Positions 6,995 through 28,414 of a stretch of DNA of 64,000 nucleotides are shown piece by piece. Within the stretch, counting starts at the first letter, position 1, and each line of letters starts with the position of its first letter. Under the pieces are notes generated by a model. That model was not told the origin of the DNA, searched no databases, and worked only from the letters and a program-made list of their open reading frames with translations. The DNA comes from Frondihabitans sp. PAMC 28766 (lineage in GTDB: Bacteria > Actinomycetota > Actinomycetes > Actinomycetales > Microbacteriaceae): positions 3,410,001 to 3,474,000 of the forward strand of contig NZ_CP014513.1 in the NCBI RefSeq assembly GCF_001577365.1. Reading direction: 5' to 3'. The position numbers and the translations under genes are program-made.

Positions 6995-7108
6995 TCAGGC
7001 CGCGACGAGCCCGGACGGGTTGTCGACGGGCGTGCCGTCGGGCTCGGTGCCGGTCTCGGGGTCGACCTCGTCGGGGTCTGGCACGCCCTGCGGCTTAGGG
7101 TCGCTCAC
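6995..7108 (-). CDS. Small acidic hypothetical protein (37 aa)
   Basis: GTG-started ORF reading VSDPKPQGVPDPDEVDPETG and ending NPSGLVAA. Its GTGA start overlaps the stop of the upstream small ORF by four bases, which argues for translational coupling and for both being real. The protein is very acidic, proline-rich and has no hydrophobic segment. The function is unknown; I recognise no family. Confidence 0.5.
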   Translation of the reverse strand: MSDPKPQGVPDPDEVDPETGTEPDGTPVDNPSGLVAA

Positions 7109-19883: not shown

Positions 19884-19956
19884 GGTCAGTGCGCGTCGCA
19901 GGTCAGTGCGCGTCGCAAGTCAATGCGCGTCGCAGGTCAGTGCGCGTCGCAGCTCA
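19884..19956. repeat. 17-bp tandem repeats abutting the SDR stop codon
   Basis: Units of GGTCAGTGCGCGTCGCA start at 19884, 19901, 19918 and 19935, and a degenerate fifth unit runs into the 3' end of the SDR gene. Read on the minus strand, each unit begins with CAY-TGA, the last codon and stop of that gene. The array therefore looks like slippage copies of the gene end. Confidence 0.85.
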
Positions 19957-20724
19957 ATGCATATAGAGCCCGCCGTCGACGTTGAGCGTCTGGCCCGTGA
20001 TCCAGCCGGCGTCGGCCCCGATCAAGAACTCGATGGCGGCGCCGATGTCGTCCGGGGTGCCGACGCGACGGATCAGGAGATCCTCGGCGAGCTCTTCTTT
20101 GCGCTCGTCGGTGAGCGTGCCGCCCATGATGTCGGTGTCGATCGGGCCCGGGGCGATCGCGTTCGCGGTGACACCGAACTCACCGAGCTCGCGGGCGAGC
20201 GAGCGCATGAGGCCGATCACGCCGGCCTTCGCCACCGAGTAGGGCGTCTTGCTGAAGGTGCCGCCACCGCGCTGGGCCGAGACCGACGACAGGCTGACGA
20301 TACGGCCGACGCCCGAGCGCACGAGGCTCTGGGCCACGCGCTGCGACACGTTGTGCACGCCGTCGAGGTTGATGCTCATCACGCGGCGCCATTCGTCGGC
20401 GTCGAGCTCGAGGTAGGGCACCGGCGACGAGACGCCCGCGATGTTGGCGAGGGCTGTGAGCGGCGGCAGTTTGGCTTCGAGCTCGTCGACGGCCGCCTGC
20501 ACGGCGCCCCGGTCGACGACGTCTGCGCCGACACCGTGGGCCTCGACTCCGAAACGGTCGTGCAGCTCGGCCGCGAGATCGGCGCACGCGCCCCCGTCGA
20601 GGTCGAGCAGCCCGACGTTCCAGCCGTGCTCGGCGAGACGGGTGGCGGTGGCGCGGCCGATGCCGCGGAGGGATGCCGCACCGGTGACGACGACGGTCGG
20701 CGAGGTGGGGAAGGAGGTGGTCAT
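19954..20724 (-). CDS. Short-chain dehydrogenase/reductase (FabG-like)
   Basis: A 256-residue classical SDR: cofactor motif VTGAASLRGIGRATATRLAE, ANIAG (NNAG-like), catalytic Ser in IVSLSSVSAQ and the YSVAKAG Tyr-x-x-x-Lys. It has a normal C-terminus, GWITGQTLNVDGGLYMH. It oxidises or reduces a hydroxyl/keto group with NAD(P)H. The start MTTSFPTS gives the family length; the longer frame adds a charged non-homologous stretch. It lies 49 bp downstream of the aldo/keto reductase and is the third gene of the GH39 operon, suggesting a role in sugar oxidoreduction. Confidence 0.92.
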   Translation of the reverse strand: MTTSFPTSPTVVVTGAASLRGIGRATATRLAEHGWNVGLLDLDGGACADLAAELHDRFGVEAHGVGADVVDRGAVQAAVDELEAKLPPLTALANIAGVSSPVPYLELDADEWRRVMSINLDGVHNVSQRVAQSLVRSGVGRIVSLSSVSAQRGGGTFSKTPYSVAKAGVIGLMRSLARELGEFGVTANAIAPGPIDTDIMGGTLTDERKEELAEDLLIRRVGTPDDIGAAIEFLIGADAGWITGQTLNVDGGLYMH

Positions 20725-20773: not shown

Positions 20774-21625
20774 TCAGCGGATCTGGGTGATCTCGAAGGT
20801 CGCAGGATCCCCGCCGACCCTGACCCCGGTCTCGAGCGAGTCGATCGCGCGCCGGTCGGCATCGCTCAGCCGCAGCCCCGTCACGTCGAGGTTCTCGGCC
20901 ATCCGCTCGGGCCTGACGCTCTTGGGGATGACGACCCGCCCGTGGGCGAGATGCCAGGCCAGGATCACCTGCGCGGGTGTCGCACCGAGGCGTCGAGCGA
21001 TCCCCGCCACGACCGGCGAGCCGAGGTCGGCGCCCTGCCCGAGAGGGCTGTACGCCTCGACCTTGATGCCGTGCTGCTCGCACAGCGCCGTGAGTTCGCG
21101 CTGCTGGAAGGTCGGGTGCACCTCCAACTGGTTGAGGGCCGGCCTCGTCGACGTCGACGCGAGCAGCCGCTCGAGGTGCTCGGCCAAGAAGTTGGAGACC
21201 CCGATCGACCGGACGAGCCCGTCGCCGACGGCCGCCTCCATGTCGCTCCAACTCTCGCGGTAGAGGTCGCGCGCCGGCGACGGCCAGTGGATGAGGTAGA
21301 CGTCGATGTGATCGACCCCCAGCGCGTCGCGGCTCCGCTCGATGGCCTCTCGTGTCGACCGTGCCCCCTGGTTGCCGTTCCGCAGCTTGGTCGTCACGAC
21401 GATCTCGTCGCGCGGCACGCCGCTCGCCTGAATGCCCGCGCCGACGCCGGCCTCGTTGTTGTAGGCGGCAGCGGTGTCGATCAACCGGTAGCCCGCGGCG
21501 AGGGCGTCTTCGACGGCCTTCTGCGCCTCATCGGGCGGGATCTGGAAGACGCCGAAGCCGACCTGCGGCAGCACGACTCCCCCGCCGACATCCACGCCCG
21601 CCGTGGAAGGGCCCGTCTCGGCCAT
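20774..21625 (-). CDS. Aldo/keto reductase (AKR5/2,5-diketo-gluconate reductase-like)
   Basis: A 283-residue (alpha/beta)8 aldo/keto reductase. The catalytic residues are visible: Asp in RLIDTAAAY, Tyr in AYNNEAGVG, Lys in VVTTKLRN and His in VYLIHWPSP. The C-terminal VIPKSVRPERMAENLDV is the NADPH-binding signature. The start ATG shares a base with the stop of the upstream GH39 gene (TGATG), so it is translationally coupled. It probably reduces a sugar aldehyde or ketone linked to products of the glycosidase. The specific sugar cannot be determined. Confidence 0.93.
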   Translation of the reverse strand: MAETGPSTAGVDVGGGVVLPQVGFGVFQIPPDEAQKAVEDALAAGYRLIDTAAAYNNEAGVGAGIQASGVPRDEIVVTTKLRNGNQGARSTREAIERSRDALGVDHIDVYLIHWPSPARDLYRESWSDMEAAVGDGLVRSIGVSNFLAEHLERLLASTSTRPALNQLEVHPTFQQRELTALCEQHGIKVEAYSPLGQGADLGSPVVAGIARRLGATPAQVILAWHLAHGRVVIPKSVRPERMAENLDVTGLRLSDADRRAIDSLETGVRVGGDPATFEITQIR

Positions 21626-23360
21626 CACGCGACCTCGGGGGTCAGCACGAGCACCGAGACCGCGGTCGACGGCAGCGAGACGGGCAGCTCGACAGCCCCG
21701 TCGGTCGGCGACACGGTGCTCGGCTCGTCGAGCAGCTCGAGCCCCTGCCGGTCGCGGATCGCGGAGAGCTGCTCCGGTGTCGGATCCTGCGGGCTGCCGA
21801 GGCTCTTCCACACCGTGTGCGAGTTGCTGTGCGTTCTGTCGATACGGAAGTGCTCGAGACGGTAGCTGGCCGAGGCGAGCCCGGTGATCGAGACGCTGAC
21901 CGGCACCTCTGCGTCGCCGCGGTGGTACTGGTCGTCGGCGTGCCGGTAGACCAGGGCGGTGACGCGGCCGTCGTCGGATGCCGAGGCGAGAACGTCGACC
22001 TCTTCGGGAGCCCCGGTCTCGAGGGTGTCGTCGAGCTCGTCGACGTGCCAGCTCGCGTCCGAGGTGGCCGGCAGACGGCGGTCGCCGAGGAGGCCGAGAG
22101 CGCGGTAGGCGTTGAAGAACGGCTTCTCGACGCCGCCCGCGGTGAGGAAGGCCCGAGTGCCCTCGAAGTAGCGCTCGCCTTCGAAGTAGAAGCTCCACGT
22201 GGTCGCGCGGTTGACGCTCGCGATCTCCTGTTCGTTGAGGTCGAGGATCTTCTTCATCAGGTTGATCTGGAAGACCGGGTAGTACTCGGTGTTCTGGAAC
22301 TCGAAGTTCGAGTTGTCGTACACACCCCAGTGCGCAGGCACCCCGGCGTCGCACTCGTCGACGATCGCCGGGAGGCTCGCGATCGACGGGAACTCGGCCA
22401 TCACCCGCAGCAGCGTGCGCATCTCGTAGAGCATCTTGCCGGTCGAGGGCGACTGCTTCTCGGGCGCCTCGGCACCGAGCACGCCGTAGGTGCGCCACGG
22501 CGTGAAGTGCGAGCCCTTGGTGTGGAACGACACGAAGTCGATGGGCAGAGCACGGTCGACGACGAAGGCGAGGAAGTCGCGGAGGAAGGTGACGCCGTTC
22601 GCCCCGCCGGTCACCGTGGGGCCGCCGACCTTCGCGTCGGGCAGCACGCTGCGCACCGCATTCGCGGTGGCCTCGTAGAGGTCGCAGAACTCCTGGTGGG
22701 TGCCGCGCCAGTAGAAGATGTCGGGTTCGTTCCACAGCTCCCAGAGCCAGGTCGAGACCTCCGCCTCGCCGTAGCGCTCGAGCGAGTGCCGTGCGAGGGC
22801 GGCCACGAGGTCACCCCACTTGCCGAGGTCTTTCGGCGGGTACGACCACTGCCCGGCCTCGTAGGCGCTGTAGACGGTGGGGCTGTCGATGATCGTGTGC
22901 TCGGCCAGGGCGCGATCGGGCAGAAGGTCGCGGGGCGTGAAGCCGAGCTCGACCAGCACATGGTGGCCGGCCCCGACGATGGCGTCGTACGTGTCGTCGA
23001 CGATCTGGAAGTCGTAGACCGGGTTGCCCGCGGCGTCCTCGTGATAGACGTTGCCGCTGCCGAAGTGAGGCAGGCCGAAGCCCGATCCGCTCATGAAGAC
23101 GTAGTGCGGCCGCACGTGGAAGGGCCGGCCCGACGTCCCGGCGATGTCCTTCAAGAGGCGCTTGCCCGTCGGCGTGTACGTCCAGTTGATCTCGTCGTAG
23201 CCGAGGCTCTCCCAGACCGGCTCGAGCACGGTGCCCTCGGCGCCGGCGTCGATGTCGACCCGGGCGCTGGTGACGTGGGCGGCTTCAGGATCATGGGGGC
23301 GAACTGGGGCACGCCGCTCGCGACCGCCGTCCCCGGGTTCTTGTCCTCTGCGATGGTCAT
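21625..23360 (-). CDS. GH39-type glycoside hydrolase (beta-xylosidase-like), frameshifted near 23283
   Basis: About 578 residues if repaired. It starts at MTIAEDKNPGTAVASGVPQF after AGAGGACCACA; near 23280-23288 one missing base separates this N-terminus from the body starting AHVTSARVDIDAGAEG. The body has the GH39 fold: the acid/base glutamate in WLWELWNEPDIFYW (Asn-Glu-Pro), the nucleophile in PAIVDECDAG and a C-terminal beta-sandwich. Family members are retaining beta-xylosidases or alpha-iduronidases. No signal peptide is present, so it acts on imported oligosaccharides. It is first in an operon with an aldo/keto reductase and SDR, under the shared 24-bp element. Confidence 0.88.
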
Positions 23361-23484
23361 TGTGGTCCTCTCCGTCGGGGTCCTGGGGTCGAGACGTCTC
23401 GTGCACACGTCGGGGTGATTCCACCTCGCCGACGGCCGCAGCCGGTAGCCTCGTGCCAACGACTCTCGTCCCGTCGCGACGACG

Positions 23485-23508
23485 TTGTCAAGGAATAATT
23501 GTTAACAA
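23485..23508 (-). promoter_or_regulatory. 24-bp operator/promoter element for the GH39 operon (copy A)
   Basis: Read on the minus strand: TTGTTAACAAT, then TA, then TTCCTTGACAA. The first half is a palindrome (ATTGTTAACAAT at 23498-23509) typical of a GntR/FadR operator. The second half supplies TTGACA (23486-23491) as a -35 box directed at the GH39 gene. It also lies 18 bp upstream of the regulator start and could mediate autoregulation. Confidence 0.8.
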
Positions 23509-23526
23509 TCTTTGCTTGGAGTCCGC

Positions 23527-24207
23527 ATGGCGCTTCCTGATCAGATCGTGTTCGACGTCAGCCCTGCCCTCTCGCAGAACGTCGTCGACGCTCTTCGCGA
23601 CATGATCGCGTCGGGGCGGGTGGGCGAAGGCGAGCACCTCAAAGAGAGCGAGCTCGCCGAAGCGCTGGGTGTCAGTCGCGGCCCTGTGCGCGAAGCCTTC
23701 CAACAGCTCGCCAACGAGGGCTTCATCGAGCTGCGCCGGCACCGCGGCGCCTTCGTCACGACCCTCCGTCGGCGCGACATCGAAGAGGTCTACTCGCTGC
23801 GGATCGCGCTCGAACGGCTCGCCATGCAGCGCGCAGCGAGCCGGATCACCCCGGAGATCGCTCAGCGGATGGACGACGTGCTGACCGCCATGCAGAACGT
23901 CGCCCCCACAACGACGGCGGCCGAGGCCGTCGCCCTCGACCTCGAGTTCCACGACCTCGTCTACGAGGCCGCCGACCACGATCGACTCCTGCGGTCGTGG
24001 CGCTTCATCCGCAGCCAGGTCGCGTTCTTTCTCCAGGTGCGCAACCGCGCCCACCCCGACTTCGTCTCGGTCGGCTACGCCGAGCACCGCCAGATTCGAG
24101 ACGTGCTGCTCACCGGCGATCCTGACGCGGCGGAGGCGGCCATCGTCGATCACGTCAAAGGCACGCTCGTGCGCCTCTTGAGCGACCATGACGGTGACGA
24201 GAGCTGA
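23527..24207 (+). CDS. GntR-family (FadR/FCD) transcriptional regulator
   Basis: A 226-residue regulator with an N-terminal winged helix (VVDALRDMIASGRVGEGEHL and ELAEALGVSRGPVREAFQQL) and a C-terminal FCD helical effector domain (DLEFHDLVYEAADHDRLLRS and EHRQIRDVLLTGDPDAAEAA), with the Asp/His residues that bind a metal and carboxylate or sugar acid ligand. It starts at the ATG at 23527. It stands between the divergent GH39 operon and the ABC importer operon, both of which carry the same palindromic element, so it is the obvious candidate regulator of both. The ligand is unknown. Confidence 0.93.
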   Translation: MALPDQIVFDVSPALSQNVVDALRDMIASGRVGEGEHLKESELAEALGVSRGPVREAFQQLANEGFIELRRHRGAFVTTLRRRDIEEVYSLRIALERLAMQRAASRITPEIAQRMDDVLTAMQNVAPTTTAAEAVALDLEFHDLVYEAADHDRLLRSWRFIRSQVAFFLQVRNRAHPDFVSVGYAEHRQIRDVLLTGDPDAAEAAIVDHVKGTLVRLLSDHDGDES

Positions 24208-24256
24208 CCCGTCGTACCGAGCCCGCGCATCCTGCAGGTTTTCGCCGTCTGAGCTT

Positions 24257-24280
24257 TTGTTAACAATCTTTCCTTGACAA
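24257..24280 (+). promoter_or_regulatory. 24-bp operator/promoter element for the ABC importer operon (copy B)
   Basis: TTGTTAACAAT, then CT, then TTCCTTGACAA: 22 of 24 bases match copy A upstream of the GH39 operon, in the opposite orientation. TTGACA at 24274-24279 is a consensus -35 box. GATGCT 17 bp later (24297-24302) is a plausible weak -10. A repressor on the palindrome would block RNA polymerase. Confidence 0.8.
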
Positions 24281-24352
24281 AGCTACGGCTCGCGCCGATG
24301 CTGGGTCCCACCGCGTCGCAACGACGACGTTCCGCGGACGAAAGGACGACCA

Positions 24353-25701
24353 GTGCTCACTCGACGCACCTGGAGACGGCACCGGCTGATGGCGATCGCC
24401 GTCGTAGCCGCGGCGGTGGCAGCGCTCTCGGGCTGCTCCTCCTCGGCCGGCAGCAGCTACAACTCCAACGCCTCCTGCAGCAACACGATCGACAAGCCGA
24501 ACGCGACCAAGATCACCGTCTGGTCGTGGTCGCCCACGATCGAGGTCGCCTCCGACGCGTTCAACAAGGCGCACAGCGACGTCCAGGCGTGCATCGCCAA
24601 CGTGGGGGCCGGCACAGCCGAGTACAACAAGCTCAACACGGCGATCGCCGCCGGCAGCGGGGCCCCGACGTCGCCATGATCGAGACCGAGTACCTCTCGA
24701 GCTTCGAGATCCGCGGCGCTCTCGTCGACCTGTCGAAGTACGGCGCCGAGAAGGTGCGGCAGAACTTCTCGGCCGGCACGCTGAAGGACATCTCGAGCGA
24801 CGGCGACATCTACGCCATCCCCGACGACGGCGGCCCGGTCGCCCTGATGTACCGCAAGGACATCTTCGACAAATATCACCTCACCGTGCCGACCACGTGG
24901 GCCCAGTTCGAGGCCGATGCGGTGAAGCTCAAGGCCGAGGGCGGCCCGGCCATGGCCGACTTCCCCAGCGACACCCCGCAGTTCCAGCAGTCGCTCGCCA
25001 ACCAGGCCGGGTCGAAGGCCTTCGAGTACAACCAGTCGAACCGCACGTCGATCGGCATCGACACCGACAACGCGGCCTGGCAGAAGGTCATGACCTTCTG
25101 GCAGGGCATGATCTCGAAGAACCTCGTGGCGACGACCGGCGAGCAGACCACCGACTACACGGCAGGCCTCGGCGACGGCAAGTACGCCACGATGATCGCG
25201 CCGTCGTGGGAGCCGGGCCACCTCACCGGCAACGGCTTCGCACCCGGCAAGGGCAGCCCGTGGCGGGTCGCCCCCCTGCCGCAGTGGGCCGCCGGCGACA
25301 ACGCCCAGGTCAACTGGGGCGGGTCGACCTACACGGTGACCACCCAGAGCAAGCACCCGAAGCTCGCCGCCGAGGTCGCGATCTACCTCTTCAACGACGA
25401 GACGCCGACGACCATCGGCGCGCACTTCCCCCAGCACGTGCCGACCCAGAAGCGCAGCTGGTTCGCCCCGGCCAAAGACCCCTTCTTCGCCTACCAGCAG
25501 GCCAACAAAGAGGTCTGGATCCCGGCGTCGGCCGGCTACAAGGGCACCGTCTACAGCCCCTTCCAGCAGTTCTACTACGCCCAGGTCAACACGGCGGCCA
25601 TCGCGATCGCAGCCGGCAAGCCCGTCGACGCCGCCCTCCAGAAACTCCAGTCGACCACCGTCTCGTACGCCCAGAGCCAGGGATTCCAGGTGAAGAAATG
25701 A
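24353..25701 (+). CDS. ABC transporter sugar-binding lipoprotein (family 1), frameshifted at 24659-24666
   Basis: About 449 residues if repaired. The GTG start follows AAAGGACGACCA. A lipoprotein signal ends in the lipobox LSGC, so the mature protein is anchored outside the membrane. ATKITVWSWSPTIEVASDAF is the usual family start. At GGGGCCCC one base is missing: the first frame stops after AAGSGAPTSP, while the other frame resumes DVAMIETEYLSSFEIRGALV. The remainder (DIYAIPDDGGPVALMYRKDI and so on) is intact. It binds a sugar for the two permeases downstream; ATG of the first permease overlaps the stop. No ATPase gene is adjacent, as is common for such loci that share MsiK-type ATPases. Confidence 0.9.
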
Positions 25702-26645
25702 CCACGACGATCCGCACCCCCGCAGCCCGCCCGGCACGCGCGGCGCGCCCGCCCCGGGCCCCCAAGCGGCGCGGAGGCCGCCGCCAGTGGATCGCGTGGC
25801 TCTTCATCGCACCGTTCGGCGTCGTCTTCCTCGCCTTCCTGGTGGCCCCGCTCGTCTACGCCTTCGGCCTGAGCCTCTTCACGCAGAAGCTCGCGACCGG
25901 CAACGCGTTCGTCGGCCTCGCGAACTACGCGCAGGCGTTCACCGACCCGCTCTTCCTCGGCGGCGTGCTGTTCGTACTGCTGTTCTCGCTCGTCCTGATC
26001 CCCGTGCAGATGGTCGTCTCGCTGGCCGCGGCCCTCGTGCTCGACTCGCTCACGACGAAGCTGGCGAACTTCTCGCGCCTGATGATCTTCGTGCCGTACG
26101 CGGTGCCCGCGGTGATCGGCGCGCTCATGTGGGGCTTCCTCTACAGCCCTCAGTTCGGGCCGCTGACGCAGTTCTTCGCGCTCTTCCACCAGACGGCGCC
26201 CAACATCCTCGACAGCCACAACGTCTTCGGCGGCCTGATCAACGTCGTCAACTGGCAGTGGGCCGGCTACTACATGATCATCATCTACGCGGCTCTCCGC
26301 GGCATCGACTCGAGCATCTACGAGGCGGCCGAGATCGACGGTGCCAACGCGTGGCAGATCGCCGTGCGCGTGAAGGTGCCGATGGTGGCCTCCGCGCTCG
26401 TCCTGATCCTGGTGTTCGCCCTCATCGGCACGTTCCAGTTCTTCACCGAGCCGACCATTCTGACGCCGGCGTCGAACGGCGCGATCACCCCCTCGTACAC
26501 ACCGAACATCTACGCCTACACGCAGGCCTTCTCGTACACGCAGTTCAACTACGCGTCGGCTCTGTCGTTCGCCCTCGGGGCCGTCGTCTTCATCGCGGTC
26601 TACATCTTCCTCTTCGCCACGCGAAAGAAAGGCAGGATCCTCTGA
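25698..26645 (+). CDS. ABC transporter permease (carbohydrate, MalF/UgpA type)
   Basis: A 315-residue membrane permease with six hydrophobic segments after a basic N-terminus (PRAPKRRGGRRQWIAWLFIA). The EAA loop that contacts the ATPase reads IYEAAEIDGANAWQIAVRVK. Preceding text LMIFVPYAVPAVIGALMWGF is typical of CUT1 sugar permeases. Its ATG overlaps the stop of the binding-protein gene and its TGA overlaps the next ATG, so the three are one operon. It imports the sugar delivered by the lipoprotein. Confidence 0.95.
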   Translation: MTTTIRTPAARPARAARPPRAPKRRGGRRQWIAWLFIAPFGVVFLAFLVAPLVYAFGLSLFTQKLATGNAFVGLANYAQAFTDPLFLGGVLFVLLFSLVLIPVQMVVSLAAALVLDSLTTKLANFSRLMIFVPYAVPAVIGALMWGFLYSPQFGPLTQFFALFHQTAPNILDSHNVFGGLINVVNWQWAGYYMIIIYAALRGIDSSIYEAAEIDGANAWQIAVRVKVPMVASALVLILVFALIGTFQFFTEPTILTPASNGAITPSYTPNIYAYTQAFSYTQFNYASALSFALGAVVFIAVYIFLFATRKKGRIL

Positions 26646-27606
26646 TGTCCAGCTCGACAGCAAGCGTCCGCCGCCCCGTCGACAGCACCGCCGACGCGTC
26701 TGCCACGCCCACCCGCCGACGCATCAAGAGGTCGGCCTCCGGGGCCGTCGGCCGGGGCAGAGCCGCCACGTCATCGCCCACATCTTCCTGGTGATCCTGA
26801 TCGTGTACTTCCTGCTGCCGCTGTGGTGGCTGCTCGTCGCGAGCACTAAGAACTCGCACGGGCTGTTCTCGGGCACGGGTGGCGCGCTCTGGTTCGACAA
26901 GACGTTCGCGCTGTTCTCGAACATCTCGCAGCTGGCCACCTACGACAACGGCATCTACTTCCGGTGGCTCGCCAACTCGTTCCTCTATGCCCTGACAGGC
27001 GGGGTGGGCGCGACACTCCTGGCGGTGCTCGCGGGCTACGGCTTCGCCAAATTCAACTTCCGAGGGCGCAGGATCTCACTGGCGCTGCTCTTGGGGTCGG
27101 TCATGGTGCCGCTCACTGCGCTGGTGATCCCGACCTTCCTTCTGCTGGCGCAGGTGCACCTCATCAACACGACCTGGTCGGTGATCCTGCCCTCTCTGCT
27201 CAGCCCGTTCGGCGTGTACCTGATGCAGGTGTACGCGACCGATGCGGTGCCGACCGAGCTGCTCGACGCCGCGCGAGTCGACGGCGCCGGCGAGCTGCGC
27301 ACTTTCGTGCAGGTCGCTCTGCCGCTCTTGCGGCCGGCGGTCGTGACGGTGCTGCTGCTGTCGATCGTGGCGACGTGGAACAACTACTTCCTGCCGCTCA
27401 CCGTGCTGTCATCCGAGAAGCTCTACCCGGTCACGGTCGGCCTCGGGCAGTGGCAGAGCCTCGCCAACTCGAACGGAGCGACGCAGACGCCGCTCTTCCC
27501 GCTGATCGTCGCCGGGTCGCTGCTGTCGATCATCCCGCTCGTCGTCTCGTTCCTGCTGCTGCAGCGCTACTGGCAGGGCGGCCTGAGCGTCGGCAGCCTG
27601 AAGTAG
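26645..27606 (+). CDS. ABC transporter permease (carbohydrate, MalG/UgpE type), frameshifted near 26755-26770
   Basis: About 320 residues if repaired. The N-terminus MSSSTASVRRPVDSTADASA begins at the TGATG overlap with the first permease, and the body resumes in another frame as RHVIAHIFLVILIVYFLLPL. A single missing base near 26755-26770 explains the split. The body has six membrane segments and the EAA loop ELLDAARVDGAGELRTFVQV. It ends with the basic-free tail LQRYWQGGLSVGSLK typical of MalG-type permeases. It pairs with the preceding permease to form the channel. Confidence 0.9.
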
Positions 27607-27622: not shown

Positions 27623-28414
27623 GTGGGCTCGATGAACGCGATCTCCGACTCGCCGCCCGGCGAGGGGTCGGCACCCGGCGGTGCCATCGACCGCAGCGGG
27701 CTGCGCGATCGGGTCTACTCGGTGCTGCTCGAGCTGATCCTCGACGGTGTCGTCTCGCCGGGTGAGCGCCTCACCATCGACGCGCTCGCCAAGCGGCTCC
27801 GCCTCTCCCCCACCCCGGTGCGCGAGGCCCTGGTGCAGCTCGAGCGCACCGGCCTCGTCACCCGCGAAGCGCTCAAGGGCTATCGCGTCGCCCCGCCGCT
27901 CGACCGGCAGCAGATCGAAGAACTCTTCGATGCGCGGCTCGTGCTCGAGACGAGTGCCGCCGAGCGCGCGTCGGCGCACACCCTCGAGCTGATGGACCCG
28001 CTCGTCCGAGCCGAAGACCAGCATGCGATCCTCGGCGACCGTGTGATCCGGGCGGCGGCCGTGGGCGACGTGCCGGTGGCCGTCTTCCGCGAGTACTTCG
28101 ACGCCGACTGGGCCTTCCACCGGGTCATCTTCGAGAACTGCGGCAATCGCTTTCTGCTCGACCTCTCGGAGAGCCTCAGCGCGCACGTGCACCGCATGCG
28201 CCAGGCCGTGCTGCGCAACCACAACGACGTCGCCGAGGCCTTGGTCGAGCACGGCCGCATCGTGTCGGCCTTCCGCTCGGGCGTGCCCGGAGCCGCGACC
28301 GAGGCCATGCGCGCGCACGTGCTGAACGTGCGATCGCGGGCCGTCGACGACGCGAGCGGAGACTCGGGCCACGACTCGGGCGGCGAGCCGGTGGTCGCCG
28401 GCTCGAGCCTTTAG
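27623..28414 (+). CDS. GntR-family (FadR/FCD) transcriptional regulator
   Basis: A 263-residue regulator starting GTG (or ATG nine bases later) with winged helix LRDRVYSVLLELILDGVVSP and LAKRLRLSPTPVREALVQLE, followed by an FCD domain with the ligand-binding acidic/histidine residues (FDADWAFHRVIFENCGNRFL). It follows the second sugar permease by 16 bp and so may be the last gene of the importer operon. The Ser/Gly-rich C-terminus is variable. It overlaps the convergent MFS gene by four bases at their stops. Confidence 0.9.
   Translation: MGSMNAISDSPPGEGSAPGGAIDRSGLRDRVYSVLLELILDGVVSPGERLTIDALAKRLRLSPTPVREALVQLERTGLVTREALKGYRVAPPLDRQQIEELFDARLVLETSAAERASAHTLELMDPLVRAEDQHAILGDRVIRAAAVGDVPVAVFREYFDADWAFHRVIFENCGNRFLLDLSESLSAHVHRMRQAVLRNHNDVAEALVEHGRIVSAFRSGVPGAATEAMRAHVLNVRSRAVDDASGDSGHDSGGEPVVAGSSL

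Follow-up and report, generated by a model that had tools for sequence, protein, structure and literature searches.

The window analyzed here, a 64,000-nucleotide stretch of the Frondihabitans sp. PAMC 28766 genome, carries two divergent sets of genes on either side of a gene for a GntR/FCD (FadR-type) regulator. On one side lies a GH39-AKR-SDR operon, and on the other an ABC importer operon. A copy of a 24-bp element stands in front of each. The features are listed below in order of position, with the Pfam or tblastn matches in brackets.

19954-20724, minus strand: short-chain dehydrogenase, SDR (PF13561, 8.5e-59)
20774-21625, minus strand: aldo-keto reductase, AKR (PF00248, 3e-53)
21625-23360, minus strand: GH39 glycosidase (PF01229, 1.3e-43), with a frame break near 23290 and its main open frame at 21625-23424
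23446-23451, plus strand: TAGCCT, candidate -10 for the regulator gene itself, picked by eye
23462-23467, minus strand: candidate -10 GAGAGT of the GH39-operon promoter, 18-bp spacer
23485-23508, minus strand: element copy A, with palindrome TTGTTAACAA at 23499-23508 and -35 TTGACA at 23486-23491, directed toward the GH39 operon and kept beside orthologous regulators
23527-24207, plus strand: GntR/FCD (FadR-type) regulator, 226 aa (Pfam GntR 1.5e-18, FCD 5.9e-24)
24257-24280, plus strand: element copy B, with the palindrome at 24257-24266 and -35 TTGACA at 24274-24279, facing the ABC importer operon
24297-24302, plus strand: candidate -10 GATGCT of the importer promoter, 17-bp spacer
24353-25701, plus strand: ABC solute-binding lipoprotein (by tblastn, two pieces matching orthologous binding proteins at 59-64%), with a frame break near 24660
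25698-26645, plus strand: ABC permease 1 (PF00528, 2.4e-11)
26749-27606, plus strand: ABC permease 2 (PF00528, 6.8e-17, and tblastn), start approximate
27623-28414, plus strand: second GntR/FCD regulator, closing the importer operon (PF00392, 7.1e-14; PF07729, 3.5e-19)

The PF01229 match places the glycosidase in family GH39, and the best solved relatives of its Curtobacterium ortholog are GH39 beta-xylosidases. A Pfam search with the 24274-25701 frame of the binding protein gave no match, and no ATPase gene was seen among the GH39-AKR-SDR genes, the regulator, the binding protein, the two permeases and the second GntR/FCD gene. Both frame breaks adjoin G runs (GGGGG in GH39, GGGG in the binding protein) and are probably sequence errors. 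Frame breaks are also present in Frondihabitans sucicola (L032), in the binding protein, AKR, SDR and the regulator C-terminus. The initial annotation recognized a single regulator, which is correct for the interval between the two copies, but it overlooked the second GntR/FCD gene that ends the importer operon. A tblastn comparison of the loci (E<=1e-15) found a close homolog of this second gene only in the window and in F. sucicola (G285/L051; 87% identity).

The two copies of the element, TTGTTAACAATTATTCCTTGACAA (A) and TTGTTAACAATCTTTCCTTGACAA (B), are identical at 22 of 24 bases, with mismatches only at positions 12-13. Each consists of a perfect 10-bp palindrome, TTGTTAACAA, followed by a TTGACA -35 box. 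Direct sequence comparison therefore agrees with the initial annotation on the positions, strands and identity of the copies and on their two-part composition, and the distance of 18 bp from palindrome A to the regulator's ATG (23527) is also as it had described. By chance, 0.00 elements with up to three mismatches are expected in the window (100 shuffles). Few sites had been predicted for the genome as a whole; at the same tolerance, its 4.77 Mb contain copies A and B and no third. A looser pattern, TTGTNNACAATN6TTGAC with up to two mismatches, added only the other side of copy A, which faces the regulator, while a reversed control gave one match. The bare palindrome TTGTTAACAA occurs three times in the genome, the third time between dnaA and dnaN, an interval that is probably the replication origin. 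This position led us to reject the third occurrence as a regulon member, and it looks unrelated.

The regulator combines an N-terminal GntR winged helix with a C-terminal FCD domain, both above their Pfam cut-offs, and it thus belongs to the FadR (FCD) subfamily. The operator form of that subfamily, TKGT-N2/3-ACMA, is matched by TTGTTAACAA in both copies and conserved beside the orthologs, with a weak right half in some Propionibacteriales copies (ACAG, ATGA, GCAA). The recognition wing reads R-H-R-G-A-F in 19 of 19 aligned orthologs and in none of six paralogs. The metal triad and ligand arginine of FCD domains are likewise present: R92, H142 and H187 occur in all 19 orthologs and H209 in 18, the lone exception being an ortholog with a shifted C-terminal frame. 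All six paralogs share these four residues, which therefore mark an intact FCD pocket, general to the domain, rather than any particular ligand. Among the NCBIfam equivalogs listed (25 of 27 families, including PhnR-like, LldR, UxuR, ExuR, PdhR, CsiR, GlcC, FadR and the NanR subfamily), the protein reached the cut-off of none.

We then asked how far the element accompanies the regulator. In 299 genomes of the family, close regulator orthologs (58-84% identity) occur in five besides the window's own (G285, G295, G060, G268 and G127), the next best homolog being 39% identical. The element adjoins the regulator in all five, and thus in 6 of 6 genomes with an ortholog at least 58% identical when the window's is counted. 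The pattern TTGTNNACAN8TTGACA has 13 matches in nine of the 299 genomes, and ten of them adjoin a regulator ortholog. The other three lie in G149, G092 and G154; a reversed-pattern control also gave three. In G149 (L080, around 7029-7051), a like-spaced TTGTCGACAT-N7-TTGACA stands directly before a GntR/FCD gene whose product is 29% identical, which may mean that the architecture is wider than this regulator or may be one chance match.

Looking beyond the family, a contig scan of 84,980 species, which finds only species sharing two short peptide patterns, returned 16 loci, 15 of them orthologous, in F. sucicola, Curtobacterium, an Actinomycetales bin, Compostimonas, Kribbella, Microlunatus and Propionibacteriaceae. 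A sample of the class contained regulator homologs in 8 of 394 genomes, the window's own included, with close ones in G357 and G646. Together these searches define 20 orthologous loci (the window, G285, L052, G295, G268, G060, G127, G357, G646 and L055-L065) from two orders, Micrococcales (Frondihabitans) and Propionibacteriales (Kribbella). TTGT-N13-TTGACA lies beside the regulator at 17 of them, in 22 copies. The other 19 gap lengths between 6 and 25 gave three matches in total (one each at 6, 7 and 12), a rarity that supports a fixed spacing. L055 is an exception, with 12 bases instead of 13 between TTGT and TTGACA, and at L056 and G646 the element was not found at the locus, though the GH39 gene is present. 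Ten more distant homologs (L037-L046, ten of many) were tried and set aside: TTGTNNACAA occurs at one (L037) and the composite at none. The weaker homologs of the class sample (G451, G654, G480, G624 and G632; 40-41% identical in the four measured) were set aside as well, with the core site in 0 of 5 short loci and neither the composite nor GH39 in larger stretches around four of them. The string TTGTNNACAA did not turn up in the literature searched on the topic, which is no proof of its absence.

The spacing between the parts of the element is that of an operator placed just upstream of a sigma-70-type promoter. The FadR-type palindrome (TTGTnnACAA) begins 17 bp upstream of the TTGACA -35, and a -10 usually follows 16-18 bp beyond it, so that the palindrome is centered near -47.5 with a 17-bp spacer and near -48.5 with 18 bp. 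The window's own -10s, GAGAGT and GATGCT, are weak at these positions. For 12 of the 22 copies, from nine loci chosen to limit near-duplicates, the summed score of -10-like hexamers 16-18 bp past TTGACA was 27.0, compared with 12.5 ± 2.0 in shuffled sequence (0 of 5000 shuffles as high), a significance that is optimistic, as is that of the conservation itself, because the score was defined after the sequences had been viewed and the loci are not independent (eight Kribbella or Microlunatus, two Curtobacterium, two Frondihabitans). Spacing windows that overlap this one scored 20.5-21.5 and the rest 9.0-14.5. The lowest scores belong to G127, whose copy A (1.0) does not have a promoter of this form and whose copy B (1.5) has a weak one. 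Judged by its sequence, the 24-bp element is an operator fused to a promoter, and the conserved, regulator-linked pair that it forms is real.

A candidate promoter for the regulator itself lies nearby. TAnnnT was seen by eye at a place similar to that of the candidate TAGCCT in five of six family genomes, G268 excepted. If TAGCCT is the -10, copy A would fall inside the regulator's 5' leader. Control of the regulator by itself through copy A, as initially proposed, is plausible from this position.

The arrangement of the target genes varies around the regulator. The window's genus has importer and GH39 on opposite sides of the regulator, each half with its own copy of the element. In L052/G295 and G268, a single divergent operon holds the importer genes and, after them, GH39-AKR-SDR, and there is a single copy. 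Single copies are also found in Kribbella and Microlunatus endophyticus (L057-L064), where GH39 adjoins the regulator and more distant permeases (28-35% identity) belong to the same gene run; L065 resembles these loci, with no permease seen. All four family genomes with a full-length GH39 ortholog have it next to the regulator. The two do not always occur together: a GH39 ortholog is missing from G060 and G127, where the regulator is present, and in G101 a GH39 fragment sits at the end of a 3.4-kb contig and a close regulator ortholog was not found. Elsewhere the element faces other genes: the two copies of G060, like those of G357, face a TIM-barrel gene (AP_endonuc_2) on one side and Iso_dh, with TctC and TctA after it, on the other. 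Of these, G127 has just the Iso_dh/TctC/TctA set, and its copy A, directed at the end of an oppositely read gene, keeps TTGACA with no evident gene downstream. In these three relatives (loci L034, L036 and L074) the regulator and two copies of the element are reused beside Iso_dh and a TctC/TctA-type transporter.

The initial proposal that one regulator acts on both operons through one element thus gains support, since the element tracks the regulator orthologs and is present as a single copy where importer and hydrolase form one operon. We consider it very probable that the element is the fixed-spacing operator-promoter cassette of a pathway-specific GntR/FCD regulator that switches GH39-AKR-SDR and the ABC importer together in response to a metabolite, likely a sugar acid. 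A dimer of the 23527-24207 protein would bind TTGTTAACAA near -47.5, directly upstream of each operon's -35. A metabolite of the pathway, most likely a sugar acid held in the FCD metal/arginine pocket, would alter this binding, and both operons would respond together. Two other accounts dispense with this regulator. The copies might be merely duplicated strong promoters with no regulator site, and it is true that both end in TTGACA and that copies within one genome are very alike. However, the palindrome is conserved together with the -35, and most of the pattern matches in the 299 genomes stand next to the regulator, which makes this account very improbable. Another factor might read the element instead, such as the second GntR/FCD protein, which is of the same family and encoded in the importer operon. 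This is very unlikely, since the stretches of other element-bearing loci, apart from F. sucicola, contain no close homolog of it.

The sign of control is a separate matter, and the two schemes considered here are variants of this model, not alternatives to it. An operator centered near -47.5 fits either repression or activation of the CitO kind. The regulator, when bound to its ligand, might recruit RNA polymerase from upstream of the -35 at both operons, and the center of the palindrome and a spacing to the -35 that is constant across two orders are consistent with this. Its relatives offer precedents: C. glutamicum GntR1/2 activates ptsG from -60 (PMC2230225), and CitO activates from two sites upstream of divergent citrate promoters (PMC4746285, PMC3198936). 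The -35 is nevertheless a perfect consensus. Activator-dependent promoters often have no such box and, to our knowledge, most characterized FCD sugar-acid regulators are repressors. We therefore regard activation as quite possible, though short of probable. It is less likely, in our estimate, that TTGACA is partly an accessory half-site and that the regulator represses by covering the -35. When reversed, TTGACA[A/G] (YTGTCAA) does resemble the half-site TTGT, and extra half-sites near GntR palindromes have been described (PMC4494728). L056 keeps TTGTCA and TTGACAA with the palindrome lost, and G127 copy A retains its box with no evident gene. Yet in the published cases the boxes are 7-12 nt from the center of the site, while ACAA/ACAG here is about 15-19 nt away, and most copies are followed by a suitably spaced -10, so that the TTGACA box is fully explained as a -35. 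Position and invariant spacing fit activation, whereas the perfect -35 and the habit of the family fit repression; on account of the characterized relatives, we lean only slightly toward repression relieved by the ligand.

Returning to the regulator that most probably reads both copies, its FCD residues suggest that the ligand is a carboxylate, such as a sugar acid. R92, H142, H187 and H209 are spaced 50/45/22, and by spacing only they can be likened to CitO Arg97/Asn147/His191/His213 (50/44/22) and TM0439 His134/174/196 (40/22), with positions as given in PMC4746285; changes to Arg97 or His191 weaken citrate binding by CitO according to the same paper. In addition, a Tct-type transporter and Iso_dh replace GH39 and the ABC importer in three relatives. 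The pocket residues are general to FCD proteins, so the sugar acid is a putative ligand class. The xylo- or uronic-acid oligosaccharides put forward initially find no support in these observations, which point instead to a sugar acid.

The neighboring genes give some indication of the pathway. At L055, the GH39 cluster runs on to SDR, AP_endonuc_2 and 3HCDH-like genes, with a DAK kinase at the edge of the stretch. In F. sucicola, SDR is succeeded by AP_endonuc_2 and 3HCDH-like genes and, farther along, by GntR, TIM-like, RpiB and DAK genes. In the window's genome, the AP_endonuc_2, 3HCDH-like, GntR/FCD, RpiB and DAK genes cluster about 190 kb away (L048, C1:3614000-3632000); the corresponding F. 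sucicola genes are neighbors of its GH39 operon, and no TIM-like gene was seen in this 18-kb stretch. We rejected this lower-pathway cluster as a regulon member, as its 18 kb contain no TKGT-N2/3-ACMA site. These genes may encode enzymes that convert a pentose acid to a tetrulose, presumably resembling the D-apionate-to-L-erythrulose pathway. We did not adopt a D-apiose/apionate pathway as the assignment: a literature search on it yielded no usable support, and for both the 3HCDH-like and the GH39 protein the 120 relatives listed carry generic names.

A bolder version of the model, which we consider doubtful, is that the cassette is portable. In it, a sugar-acid-bound GntR/FCD activator would contact RNA polymerase at an invariant spacing, and the fixed-phase cassette would have been copied in two unrelated gene sets, allowing operons to be split or joined without losing coordination. 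The regulon would then mark a route not yet described: a C5 sugar acid, released from a GH39 glycoside, would be oxidized, decarboxylated to a C4 ketose and phosphorylated, with the 3HCDH-like, TIM-barrel, DAK kinase, RpiB and TIM-like proteins as the enzymes. Even in its simpler form, the model predicts a DNA site, target operons and a ligand class for an uncharacterized regulator, and a single operator-promoter unit may coordinate uptake with catabolism through the splitting, joining and replacement of operons across actinobacterial orders.

Several known systems resemble this one. The best NCBIfam match, PhnR-like TIGR03338, scores 127.2 bits against a cut-off of 271.5, and no phosphonate gene is found among the typed genes. 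For the FadR subfamily, PMC4494728 gives TKGT/ACMA with a 2-nt spacer as a published operator form and also describes operon-specific double sites. The present system is like those in its GntR and FCD domains, its A/T-rich palindrome with 2-nt spacer and its double sites, but it has other target genes and matches no NCBIfam equivalog at cut-off. GntR1 and GntR2 of Corynebacterium glutamicum are also actinobacterial FadR-type proteins and, as gluconate regulators, control uptake and catabolism of a sugar acid. In contrast to the regulator described here, their sites fit TNGTNNNACNA, with a 3-nt spacer, their regulon comprises gluconate and PTS genes, and their repression of gntK and gntP is exerted through sites around the transcription start, at -11 to +4 and +2 (PMC2230225). 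HypR, a repressor, covers the -10, and the same article names CitO as an activator whose sites are upstream of the -35 (PMC6608401). Given these published 2-nt-spaced operators, double sites and repressor and activator positions, the architecture at this locus is known in kind. CitO of Enterococcus faecalis is also a single GntR/FCD protein with two sites upstream of promoters for transport and catabolic operons, and the conserved residues here appear to match Arg/His positions of its citrate pocket. The typed genes of the two operons include no citrate gene, and whereas the CitO sites share one intergenic region, those described here flank the regulator gene.
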